IMG/VR virus record: IMGVR_UViG_3300028829_004116
Location: 1-64,000 of that record
DNA length: 64,000 nucleotides
Reading direction: 5' to 3' (one strand)
From: a virus
The translations under genes were made by a program, and so were the position numbers. Below, one piece after another: positions 21,868 to 53,513 of the stretch. The first letter of the stretch is position 1, and every line of letters begins with the position of its first letter. The notes under the pieces were generated by a model that worked only from the letters and a program-made list of their open reading frames with translations, had not been told where the DNA came from and did not search any database.

Positions 21868-22236
21868 ATGGATAAAAAGACAGTGAAAAATAAGAGTGCT
21901 TTATTTGCTACGGCAGACCCTAAACTACATTATGTTAAGGTATCGCCGGATAGTGATGAATACCTAAAGGTATGGATTAAGGAACCAACCTTTTTACAAT
22001 TAGAAAAGGCACAGGCAAAACTAATTAACCTGAATGCTAAAACAAAGGACATTTCGCTTGAAATGGACACACTGTTCCGTTATCTATGGGAAGCGTTTGT
22101 TGAAAAAACAGAACCCTCTCTATCATCAATTGAAATTCTAAGGTTAAGCCCCTATGTTGGAAATCAAATTAAAGATATTCTCCCCGACCCCTTCGATTTA
22201 GAGGGGGATGAAGATTTAAAAGAAAGTTCCGAATAG
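21868..22236 (+). CDS. Tail assembly chaperone, short form (gpG-like)
   Basis: 122 residues after an ACGGTGAAAACCT site. The protein lies between the tail tube and tape measure genes, ends acidic (D-L-E-G-D-E-D-L-K), and has the size of lambda gpG-type chaperones. A -1 slippery heptamer lies 13 bases before its stop, so a fraction of ribosomes should produce a longer gpGT-type fusion. It would coat the tape measure during tail-length control. Confidence 0.75.
   Translation: MDKKTVKNKSALFATADPKLHYVKVSPDSDEYLKVWIKEPTFLQLEKAQAKLINLNAKTKDISLEMDTLFRYLWEAFVEKTEPSLSSIEILRLSPYVGNQIKDILPDPFDLEGDEDLKESSE
22215..22221 (+). promoter_or_regulatory. -1 programmed ribosomal frameshift site
   Basis: The heptamer T-TTA-AAA is in the correct phase (codons TTA and AAA of the short chaperone) and is a perfect X-XXY-YYZ slippery sequence. 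The -1 frame is open from 22212 (just after a TGA at 22209-22211) to a TGA at 22422-22424, and the zero frame stops at 22234-22236. Slippage here is therefore the natural way to express the second frame. Tail-chaperone frameshifting at this locus is widely conserved in tailed viruses. Confidence 0.75.
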
Positions 22237-22424
22237 CGTTGAGGGGAGGAAAAATTGCTGACCCTACTATCGCTTCTCGTATAACTTTATATATCTTGAC
22301 AAAGGAACTACATATTAGTCCGGCTGAGGCATACCAAATGCCTTATTCTATGGTCCGTGATTTTATGGTTTTATTTACTATCACAAAGGAAGCCGAAGCC
22401 GAAGCACTTAAAAAGCAGGTGTGA
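22221..22424 (+). CDS. Tail assembly chaperone, -1 frame extension (gpT-like)
   Basis: This frame encodes about 67 residues that would be joined to the short chaperone after slippage at 22215-22221. Its helical pattern (I-T-L-Y-I-L-T-K-E-L ... M-P-Y-S-M-V-R-D-F) resembles the second domain of GT-type chaperones. Independent initiation from TTG 22239 or ATT 22254 next to GAGGGGAGG is possible but less conventional. The tape measure gene follows directly. Confidence 0.65.
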   Translation, partial: RKFRIALRGGKIADPTIASRITLYILTKELHISPAEAYQMPYSMVRDFMVLFTITKEAEAEALKKQV

Positions 22425-22426
22425 AT

Positions 22427-24904
22427 ATGGGATTAGAAGGTATTAGAAAATCATTAGCCGAAATGACGGCTGATATTTCTAATGTCCAAACGGCCATTAC
22501 AGAAACTTCGGAGGCTTCCGATTCTCTTACTCAAAAAATTGCAGGTTTAGCATCTGCAAATACAAAGGCAGGTTCGGTTTGGTCTGTAATTGGTAGAATG
22601 AGTTCGGGTTCAGGTCTGTATGATATACAGAATAAAACTCGTTCAATTGCTTTCTTATTTAAAGTGAAGCAAAATTTTGATAAGGATAGAATTAAGAATG
22701 AAAATAGAATTAATGAAATTTTATCCAACGGTATTAAAAGAAGAGAAAAACTTTTTGAAATTACTAAGTTAGCAAACATTAATGAAATAAAGGCTCTTAC
22801 TAAGGGTAAATTATTACATGATGATACTTTAAAATTACAAATGAAACAATATGGATTTGCTGAAGCAATATCTAAAGAGGCATTTAGAGCAAATAAAGCA
22901 CTTGAAGAAAGTGTGCTATCGGAAGCATCTACTTTAGATGCAAGAGATTATGGTCGCAGGGCGGATAAAGGTTCTCTTTTTAATAAATTAGGTGGACCTT
23001 TTGGCGGTAACTTAGCGGAAAGGCAAGATATGGCTGTCGGTATTGATAGTAAGACTGATGAACTCAATGAACAGATTAACAATTTAAGGGAACTAAGAAT
23101 ACTTAGGATGAAAGAGCAAGGAAAAAGAGAAAATATTGAAAATAAGTTACAAGAAAATTTCAATAAAAAGGAAAGGCTTAAGGAATTAAAAGCGTCTTTA
23201 GCAAAAGAAAAAAATGTAAAAATTGAATCAACAAGTAATAAAATGTTATTAGACCTCAAAGAATTACACATTGAGGAAGAAAAAAACAGAATTTCTAAGT
23301 TAGATATAGAAAATAGAGTCTCGGCAGAGAGATTAAAGGGATATAAAAAGGCTCTCTATGAGGCTAAAATGAAGGCCAAACCTGACCCAGTTACACATTA
23401 TGTGAGTATGGATGCCGAAAAGGCAGTATCAAAGGCAGAAGAAAATCTTGCTAAGGCTCGAACAGATATAATCGCCCATACTGAGTTAAGGAAGACAATT
23501 GCTAAACAACTAGCAAAACTTGAGGCAGAAAAAGCAGATATAGAAGAAGAACGATTTAGAGATAATGAAGAATTAGAAACAAGAAAGGCCCTCCATGCAC
23601 AAAAAATTGCGGAGATAGAAACCAAAATTTTAGACAATAAAGAATTATCACTTGCTGAAGAACAAGAATTAAAAGATATACTTTCATTACACAAAGAAAA
23701 ACAACAGGTTATAATTGCCGAACTGGAACAGTCAGAAGACTTGATTAAAGCGTATAATGGTGAACTTAATATATTAATTGATGCGGCAGAAAAAACTGGA
23801 AAGGTCTTAGTTACAAGAAAAGATGATGGGTTTAAGATTAAAAAAAGTGGAAAAATAAGAATAGGTAGAGGAATTGAAACAGAAACTCGTAAAGGTGACA
23901 AACTTTCTTTTTCGGAAAGATTTAACCCCATAAAAGCGTTTAAAAGAGCCGATGAAAGATATAAAGAAAATACCGGAAAGGAAGGTGAAACCAGCCTTAA
24001 AACTTTTGTAATGGATAAGTTAGGAATAGATAAGAGAAAAATATCCAACATATTTAAATTCGCAAAGTTAGGTTTTGCACTATTTGGTAAGGTATTACTT
24101 ATAATTACTGGCATTGGGGTTCTCGTATATATGGCAAAGCGTTTAGGTATTTTTGATAAAATTTCAGAAGCATATGATTTCCTTGTTACATCGGGAATAA
24201 TAGACGATATAAAACAAACATTTAGTGAATACATAGGTGGTGTCTCAAGTGTTTTGGGTGGTTTGTTTGATTTAGCAACCGCTTTATTCTCAGGTGGAGA
24301 AAACGGAAGTGTTATGGAGGCTCTTACTAAAATTTTAGTAGGGCTGTGGACAGTGGTTTCAAAATCAGTAGAACTTACTCTTAAACTCTTAGTTGCTTTA
24401 TTGGGTAGTATTGCCCTTTCTATTGTAAATACAGCGGTTTCAAATATTAAATCTTTTCTTAAGACATGGAACGCTGATGGTCCAATGGCGGCATTAGAAA
24501 AGTTGATTGAATATTTAGCAAAAAGAGTTTTATTTACAATAATTGCTGCGGCTGTTGGTGCTGGTATTGGATTCTTTTTCGGTGGACCTCCGGGTGCTAT
24601 TCTTGGTGTAAAGGCTGGTTCAGCAGTTGGAGGATTAGCGGCGGCTATGGAAACAGGGGGAACTACATTTAAAGCCGGTAATTATTTAGTTGGTGAAAAC
24701 GGACCTGAGATTATTTCTCTCCCCGGAAATGCAACTGTTCATAATAATAACAACACACAAAGAATGTTAGGTAATAGTATTAATGTGACAGTACAGGGAA
24801 GAGTAGGTGCATCGGACCAAGAACTTAACGATATAGCAAGAAAGATAGGACAAAAGGTTAGCCTTGAAATGAACCGATACAGCAACAGTGGATATAGAGG
24901 ATGA
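22427..24904 (+). CDS. Tape measure protein (825 aa)
   Basis: ATG 22427 is preferred over GTG 22421, with GGTG upstream. Residues 1-500 are mostly long charged coiled coil. Hydrophobic segments follow near 545-570 and 700-745 (Gly/Ala-rich, G-A-G-I-G-F-F-F). The C-terminus holds the hallmark G-E-N-G-P-E-I-I-S-L-P ... V-H-N-N-N of tape measure proteins. It follows the frameshifted chaperones, as expected. It sets tail length and probably crosses the host membrane at ejection. Confidence 0.85.
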   Translation: MGLEGIRKSLAEMTADISNVQTAITETSEASDSLTQKIAGLASANTKAGSVWSVIGRMSSGSGLYDIQNKTRSIAFLFKVKQNFDKDRIKNENRINEILSNGIKRREKLFEITKLANINEIKALTKGKLLHDDTLKLQMKQYGFAEAISKEAFRANKALEESVLSEASTLDARDYGRRADKGSLFNKLGGPFGGNLAERQDMAVGIDSKTDELNEQINNLRELRILRMKEQGKRENIENKLQENFNKKERLKELKASLAKEKNVKIESTSNKMLLDLKELHIEEEKNRISKLDIENRVSAERLKGYKKALYEAKMKAKPDPVTHYVSMDAEKAVSKAEENLAKARTDIIAHTELRKTIAKQLAKLEAEKADIEEERFRDNEELETRKALHAQKIAEIETKILDNKELSLAEEQELKDILSLHKEKQQVIIAELEQSEDLIKAYNGELNILIDAAEKTGKVLVTRKDDGFKIKKSGKIRIGRGIETETRKGDKLSFSERFNPIKAFKRADERYKENTGKEGETSLKTFVMDKLGIDKRKISNIFKFAKLGFALFGKVLLIITGIGVLVYMAKRLGIFDKISEAYDFLVTSGIIDDIKQTFSEYIGGVSSVLGGLFDLATALFSGGENGSVMEALTKILVGLWTVVSKSVELTLKLLVALLGSIALSIVNTAVSNIKSFLKTWNADGPMAALEKLIEYLAKRVLFTIIAAAVGAGIGFFFGGPPGAILGVKAGSAVGGLAAAMETGGTTFKAGNYLVGENGPEIISLPGNATVHNNNNTQRMLGNSINVTVQGRVGASDQELNDIARKIGQKVSLEMNRYSNSGYRG

Positions 24905-37968: not shown

Positions 37969-38141
37969 GTTGGCAGGACATTCTAAAATACAATCGAAAA
38001 CATTATGTTCGTGCAGGTCGTAAGCATAATGACCCTAAAACAATTAGTGTTCATCAAAAAATTTTAGAAATAGTTAATGACCCTAATATTCCAAGAAGAG
38101 AATTAGGTGCAAGAATAAAACAAATTTTAGAAGAGGAATAA
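37965..38141 (+). CDS. Small W-x-x-I-L-K signature protein (58 aa)
   Basis: MSWQDILK is identical in its first eight residues to the upstream neighbour, but the following basic sequence (H-Y-V-R-A-G-R-K-H) and C-terminal helix differ. This is the last gene of the rightward module. The signature on an otherwise unrelated short protein supports a portable targeting peptide. Confidence 0.65.
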   Translation: MSWQDILKYNRKHYVRAGRKHNDPKTISVHQKILEIVNDPNIPRRELGARIKQILEEE

Positions 38142-51971: not shown

Positions 51972-53513
51972 CTACTCACCTATCAAACAATTTGCTGTTA
52001 AGACATAACCTGCCACACTAACAGCCGAGCGTAGTGAAGACTTTACAACTCGAACAGGGTCAAAAATTTCACCATTTTCTATGAAAGTGTTGGTAATACC
52101 GTCGTAAAAGTGTCCCTTCATAATGTCTTTATTAAATGATGAATCCATTCTTTTTCCATTAATATTATAATATATCTTTTTCAAAGGAGACTTTAATGCT
52201 TCATAGAAAACTTTTTGAACACCTAAAGATTGTATATTATTATTACTAATCGAAGGGGTCAAGTTATAAAGTTCAACACCTGCACCTCGGATAACTCCTT
52301 CTGCAATAGCCGCCCTTGTAGCATTCAAGGCATCGTCTACCCTTTCTAATTTATTTTGAATCTCTTGTTCGGACATTCCACTAATACCAATAACTGCGGC
52401 ACTACCTTGAAGTTTTCCATAACGAACTGAGTGTTTCTTTTGGTAAAACTCATTCTCGGCCATAGATTCTTCAACTGCAATTTCATCAAGGCGTTCTAAA
52501 AGTAAATCATCATTACCCATGAATCCCAAGAATGCGGCCTTCTTGGATGAAATAATTGCCTTATTACATTGTCCGTAGTATGAGGCGTTAATATCAAGTA
52601 GCGACATATCTAATTCTTTGTTAATCATTTTACCACCCGTAAAGATAGCCAAGTCGTTTAACTTCTCAGTCTGCCAAAATGAAATATCTTCTGCTTGCAC
52701 AATACAAGCGTTGATATTTCCGTTCACTTGATTCATTACAAATGTATTTAGTGCAACTGCCCCAATAGAAGTGCATAGAACAATCAAAGGTCGGTTCTTT
52801 TTCTTAGCGAATTCAAGTGCAGGAATAAGTTGAGCAAAGTCATTAATATCTGCATTTGAAATTAGTATCCACGGTTTTTCAAATGTATTGCTTTCACCAA
52901 ATATTTTTGTCAAAACAGGGTTAATATATCCCTTGTCGCATTCAAAGCCCTCGATAAAAGAAACAGTGTCCTCACCCGTAGGTGAAGGTTCAACTGAGAT
53001 AACTCCATCGTATCCTATTTTTTCTACGGCTGAGTAAATTAGTTCAGCCATATTTTCATCATTGTTTGCACTGATTTTTGCTACATGGTAAATATCTCTA
53101 CCCTCAATCTTCGAGGATAAATTATCCAATTCTTTACATGTTATTTCACACAGTCTTTCGAGTTCACTACGAATAGCAACACCTGTATATTGACTTAGTA
53201 GATTTTTACCATTTTCAATTAGAGATTGAGCCATGATTGTCGAACTCGTAGTTCCATCACCAGCATTTTCTTGCGCTCTTGATGCAACTTCGATGACAAG
53301 TTTAGCACCTGCATTAGCCATTTTATCTTCAAGAACAATATTTTTTGCAACAGTCACACCATCATTAACAACCAAAGGAGGCAAGCCATCTCTTCTATCA
53401 ATAATAACACTACGAGTTGCAGGGCCTAAAGTCACACCAACTGCATTAGCAACTGCGTTAACCCCTTCGATTAATTTTTCTCTCGCTTCATTTCCATACA
53501 AAATAGACTTCAT
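51972..53513 (-). CDS. groEL: Group I chaperonin (GroEL/Hsp60)
   Basis: 513 residues. Group I landmarks are T-L-G-P-A-T-R-S-V near 28, N-D-G-V-T-V-A-K near 49, and the ATPase loop G-D-G-T-T-S-S-T near 85, followed by intermediate and apical domains. It is shorter than bacterial GroEL and lacks the Gly-Gly-Met tail. It overlaps groES as ATGA. A bacterial-type chaperonin pair is unexpected on an archaeal virus; it probably folds viral proteins such as the capsid or tail chaperone clients. Confidence 0.95.
   Translation of the reverse strand: MKSILYGNEAREKLIEGVNAVANAVGVTLGPATRSVIIDRRDGLPPLVVNDGVTVAKNIVLEDKMANAGAKLVIEVASRAQENAGDGTTSSTIMAQSLIENGKNLLSQYTGVAIRSELERLCEITCKELDNLSSKIEGRDIYHVAKISANNDENMAELIYSAVEKIGYDGVISVEPSPTGEDTVSFIEGFECDKGYINPVLTKIFGESNTFEKPWILISNADINDFAQLIPALEFAKKKNRPLIVLCTSIGAVALNTFVMNQVNGNINACIVQAEDISFWQTEKLNDLAIFTGGKMINKELDMSLLDINASYYGQCNKAIISSKKAAFLGFMGNDDLLLERLDEIAVEESMAENEFYQKKHSVRYGKLQGSAAVIGISGMSEQEIQNKLERVDDALNATRAAIAEGVIRGAGVELYNLTPSISNNNIQSLGVQKVFYEALKSPLKKIYYNINGKRMDSSFNKDIMKGHFYDGITNTFIENGEIFDPVRVVKSSLRSAVSVAGYVLTANCLIGE

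Follow-up and report, generated by a model that had tools for sequence, protein, structure and literature searches.

The window analysed here, a stretch of 64,000 nucleotides, is a portion of a 92,255-base virus record. On its plus strand, two overlapping open reading frames lie directly upstream of a putative tape measure gene, as in lambda-type phages. The first of these, G (21868–22236), which we recognised from its open frame and from family matches in its relatives, begins with an ATG at 21868 and ends with a TAG stop at 22234–22236. It encodes 122 amino acids, the N-terminal part of a predicted GT fusion. The second, T (22212–22424), lies in the −1 frame between TGA codons at 22209–22211 and 22422–22424 and would supply the C-terminal part of GT. 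A TTTAAAA heptamer at 22215–22221 is read in the G frame as GAT TTA AAA, which is the canonical X XXY YYZ phase for a −1 shift, and slippage on T_TTA_AAA is predicted to fuse G residues 1–118, which end in DLK, with 67 T residues. The first-pass annotation had described this phase, a stop-free overlap at 22212–22236 and 67 helical residues beyond the slip. The codons agree with the first of these, and the flanking stops delimit an overlap of exactly 25 nt. Helicity is borne out by prediction, with an AlphaFold2 model of T consisting of four helices at a mean pLDDT of 93. With per-site rates taken from the window's own genes, the chance of an in-phase TTTAAAA in such an overlap was about 0.9%, and that of any X_XXY_YYZ with Y = A or T about 4%. 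Against chance, the phase of the heptamer alone is suggestive, not decisive; it becomes decisive because the heptamer is conserved in relatives.

T had also been said to end just before the tape measure gene. The position holds, since the next gene (22421–24904, plus strand, 825–827 amino acids) starts at GTG 22421 or ATG 22427. Its name is more tentative: family searches gave no convincing match for this protein, and we therefore infer a tape measure only from its position and make-up, namely a coiled and hydrophobic composition, a C-terminal GENGPEI motif and a variable length (691 amino acids in locus L009). A BLASTP comparison of the candidate with HVTV-1 gp131 gave no match.

Comparison of the window with its relatives gave dN/dS values of 0.14–0.39 for T, and the T alignment was conserved right back to the slip site. 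This pattern of substitution indicates that T is protein-coding and under purifying selection. The window's T matched phrog_9001, annotated as a tail assembly chaperone, at E = 9e-4; 24 of 37 T members, the window among them, matched this family. For G, 23 of 40 family members matched phrog_25860, also a tail assembly chaperone family, while the window's own G gave no match there at a threshold of 0.01 and no other significant family match. The T model superposed on a 197-amino-acid tail assembly chaperone from Bacillus phage 019DV002 (TMq 0.75, probability 0.99), with an E-value of only 0.073. The AlphaFold2 model of G reached a pLDDT of 81.5, confidence being low at the C-terminus, where the slip site lies; Foldseek found no match for it in the PDB and, among viral models, a single strong relative, an unnamed protein. 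Searches of annotated phages by tblastn with G and T returned nothing useful. Family matches, for G those of its relatives, and the fold match of T support the placement of both proteins with the tail assembly chaperones.

Four scans of viral contigs yielded 255 loci with both domains, the window and some repeat contigs among them, which we pooled into 134 distinct G/T junctions. An in-phase slippery heptamer lay within the overlap in all 134, so that loss of the site in relatives retaining separate start codons, which the first-pass annotation had named as grounds for abandoning its proposal, was not encountered. T was in the −1 frame in 124 of the junctions. Their heptamers were AAAAAAC (72), TTTAAAA (23), AAAAAAG (12), AAAAAAA (5) and GGGAAAN (11), and one further junction had TTTGGGA overlapping a GGGAAAA. 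Such spelling differences between groups point to selection for slipperiness, not for one peptide. Within the window's clade, the codons were GAT TTA AAA in 22 of 23 junctions and AAT TTA AAA in the remaining one, as compared with a same-codon rate of 0.51 elsewhere in G, where TTA accounts for 20% of leucine codons. Synonymous-codon resampling, which approximately treats representatives less than 80% identical as independent, gave a log10 product of probabilities for retention of the pattern of −7.8 for nine divergent representatives of this clade and −12.5 for 30 divergent representatives of the larger, A-rich sister group. In the latter, the A preceding AAAAAA sits in varied codons (GAA, GCA, TCA, GTA, GGA and CAA).

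Upstream of the heptamer lies a purine-rich, Shine-Dalgarno-like GAGGGGG (22201–22207, plus strand), a putative 5′ stimulator marked by the freezing of rare codons and by column conservation. Over the five codons that precede the heptamer, all 20 of 20 glycines in the window's clade were encoded by GGG, used for 8% of glycines elsewhere in G, and 24 of 39 glutamates by GAG, as against 20% elsewhere. In 18 of the clade's 23 members a GGGGG begins 12 nt upstream of the heptamer, and AGGAGG begins 13 nt before it in 46 of 89 members of the A-rich −1 group. Pairing with the anti-Shine-Dalgarno sequence, calculated with a general archaeal 16S tail that may not be that of the host, was −9.3 kcal/mol in the −1 junctions other than TTTAAAA, compared with −5.0 in synonymous shuffles; for the window's clade the difference was weak (−9.4 versus −7.7 kcal/mol, median p 0.375). 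Several genes of the window carry similar Shine-Dalgarno sequences, and the virus thus appears to use such pairing. We also considered an upstream hairpin formed by GGGGG or AGGAGG in place of a Shine-Dalgarno-like role. The 50 nt upstream of the heptamer folded with z of about −0.5 to −0.8, near the controls, and a hairpin is not favoured; z was −0.8 to −1.5 with the heptamer included, so that a hairpin keeps a small probability. The codon bias, which is strong, and the pairing energy, weak in the window's clade, support an upstream element of the kind present in E. coli dnaX.

Downstream of the heptamer, a 3′ stem-loop was defined at 22223–22288 (plus strand; core 22230–22279, CGA..AGCG..GGGG / CCCU..CGCU..UCG) from its folding energy and covariation. 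In the window it folds with a ΔG of −20.5 kcal/mol and a z of −3.0. Across the 134 sequences, the 62 nt after the heptamer had a mean z of −3.64, and z in five control windows lay between −0.1 and −0.5. No consensus structure emerged from RNAalifold in either alignment, and the stem was defined from single folds and pair counting instead. In the A-rich sister group it occupies a fixed register with 77.5% of cells paired, and 120 cells had changed on both sides, versus 49.6 in shuffled alignments (0 of 500 shuffles). Because the register was picked from folds of the same sequences, and these are related, the shuffle counts overstate certainty; a better guide is a slide control, in which shifting the partner by one to three columns abolished the covariation signal. 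In the window's clade, 58.9% of cells were paired and double changes numbered 20 versus 13.3 (5 of 500 shuffles), a moderate signal; the 3′ stem there had a mean z of −1.7, and its register sum was off by three from that of the A-rich group. Hence the 3′ stimulatory structure that had been recommended for inspection was found, with covariation in the A-rich group and a weaker signal among the window's closest relatives, and a dnaX-like downstream stem-loop is supported, though only moderately by the window's clade taken by itself.

The Shine-Dalgarno-like element, heptamer and downstream stem-loop together reproduce the three-part layout of E. coli dnaX. dnaX is a cellular gene read by the bacterial ribosome, with about 50% shifting and with the shorter product being that of the frameshift, whereas the gene described here belongs to a virus of a probable archaeal host.

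We consider that a programmed −1 ribosomal frameshift lets a single start codon give rise to two tail assembly chaperones, GT being the predicted longer product, and we put the probability of this reading at about 0.93. The majority of ribosomes would finish G and terminate at 22234. A minority would slip back by one base with tRNA-Leu (UUA) and tRNA-Lys (AAA) on T_TTA_AAA and add 67 codons to give GT, the slip probably being stimulated by the upstream element and the stem-loop as in dnaX. By analogy with lambda, abundant G and scarce GT would coat the tape measure, with the T domain recruiting the tail tube protein. The anatomy of the junction, its conservation, the selection on the T frame, the covariation of the stem in the sister group and the chaperone matches were obtained here directly; from them we infer the occurrence and efficiency of slippage, the action of the stimulators on an archaeal ribosome and a part for the products in assembling the tail.

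Alternatively, T could be a separate protein whose translation re-initiates or starts internally close to the G stop. Candidate starts do exist: the window has a TTG at 22239, some relatives show ATGA overlaps, and 35 of 89 members of the A-rich −1 group carry an ATG in the T frame near that stop. However, no T-frame ATG occurred between the slip site and 20 nt beyond the G stop in any of the 23 members of the window's clade, nor near the stop in the 12 of the GGG group, and the TTG has no Shine-Dalgarno sequence within the preceding 14 bases. At the T position of the relatives' ATG, other members have Ile, Val or Leu, and T homology reaches the residues directly after the slip site, upstream of every start. 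As separate initiation would also leave the frozen slippery codons unexplained, we regard it as very unlikely.

Still less probable is slippage of RNA polymerase on a homopolymer, giving mRNAs of altered length from which T would be translated in the standard way. Runs of six to eight A in the sister group would suit this mechanism, but the longest run at the window's site is four bases, the GGGAAAN sites also lack long runs, and the covarying 3′ stem and Shine-Dalgarno-like element indicate ribosomes, not polymerase. The window is a single metagenomic assembly, and one reading frame might likewise have been split by an error of sequencing or assembly or through gene decay. An identical division seen in 134 distinct junctions, which were drawn from many metagenomes, together with a T dN/dS far below 1, which speaks against decay, makes this the least credible of the three.

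In the ten other junctions (L083, L084, L126, L136, L184, L185, L191, L195, L202 and L209), which come from different metagenomes, T lies in the +1/−2 frame. Their slip site is identical in all ten, GAAAAAAAGG (A7GG), and the stem lies one nucleotide closer to it, consistent with the loss of one base. After a two-base slip, both tRNA-Lys are able to re-pair. Phage Mu has a −2 frameshift, as cited in PMC5009743, and the ten relatives resemble it in needing −2 or +1 to connect G and T; this likeness concerns the relatives, not the window. A Mu-like −2 shift is likely in these junctions, and a +1 slip at the same site is possible. A T-frame ATG lies near the G stop in nine of the ten, so that internal initiation is a possibility for this set. 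A single clade of the ten was rejected (AU p 3.7e-8, for a group defined post hoc and a tree test on a short alignment), which indicates recurrent frame switching or recombination of the site. We give even odds to the joint proposition that the tailed viruses of marine archaea have a three-part signal, like that of dnaX, which functions on archaeal ribosomes, and that their T frame has switched repeatedly between −1 and −2 (or +1) through single-base indels at an unchanged A7G site.

Phage lambda and further phages with long tails are established cases of the G/GT −1 frameshift (Xu, Hendrix and Duda 2004, cited through PMC5009743), and shifts of −1, −2 or +1 occur across tailed phages (PMC5009743). 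The present junction resembles lambda in its overlapping reading frames before the tape measure gene, in a −1 heptamer near the end of G and in a T without a start of its own. It differs in sequence family and in its probable archaeal host, and this virus set adds the Shine-Dalgarno-like element and the covarying stem-loop. Among archaeal tailed viruses, the same source gives −1 shifts as predicted in HVTV-1 and HCTV-1/2/5 and a +1 shift in HSTV-2. Hardycor1 is a further predicted archaeal example (PMC7911831), and according to PMC8211752 experiments have demonstrated a single programmed −1 frameshift in Archaea, that of a Saccharolobus fucosidase. That archaeal examples exist had been implied in the first-pass annotation. 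Since −1 G/GT shifts were already predicted in HVTV-1 and HCTV-1/2/5, this kind of frameshift was already known. These viruses share the same gene order and a −1 shift (HVTV1_129/130 in HVTV-1), and the HVTV-1 record annotates the joined product, with GGGAAAG as the site and GGAGG 10 nt upstream. Here, by comparison, the heptamer is TTTAAAA in an AT-rich genome, and G and T are too diverged for tblastn; profile comparison gave a weak match to HVTV-1 for both proteins. A possible GACGAAAC/GTTTCGTC stem was seen by eye downstream of GGGAAAG in HVTV-1 (L081:7950–8080), whose arrangement thereby resembles that of the present site.

The major capsid protein (MCP) of the virus is of the SU10 type, and its nearest counterparts, at about 26–27% identity, are Haloarcula tailed viruses such as HVTV-1. 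The virus also encodes PolB, a Cpn60 chaperonin, an ERCC4 nuclease, RNR and DNA ligase. This gene content and the MCP are consistent with a magrovirus infecting archaea of Marine Group II, a tentative assignment drawn from the window's own gene set and MCP similarity, and the hosts are probably marine archaea. If the host is archaeal, the conservation of the site, the stem and the chaperone families support the proposal that a lambda-type G/GT frameshift, with a predicted fusion, occurs in an archaeal virus. They also support the view that a G/GT switch is common to tailed viruses of bacteria and archaea. Our literature search found no description of a G/GT frameshift for magroviruses, and the gene pair named here is likely overlooked by standard annotation of such marine viruses. 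The natural variants, together with the conserved upstream element and the covarying stem, offer ready-made constructs for the study of frameshifting on archaeal ribosomes.

Elsewhere in the window, the virus-encoded chaperonin, of the Cpn60/TCP-1 family, spans 51972–53513 on the minus strand (513 amino acids). Near position 38000, gene direction and GC skew change together, with virion genes on the plus strand and replication genes on the minus strand. Two contigs from bacterial genome assemblies (L257 and L258, genome_contigs; MAGs Altibacter and Maricaulis) encode a capsid protein 67–69% identical to that of the window and are most likely virus contigs misbinned into bacterial genomes.
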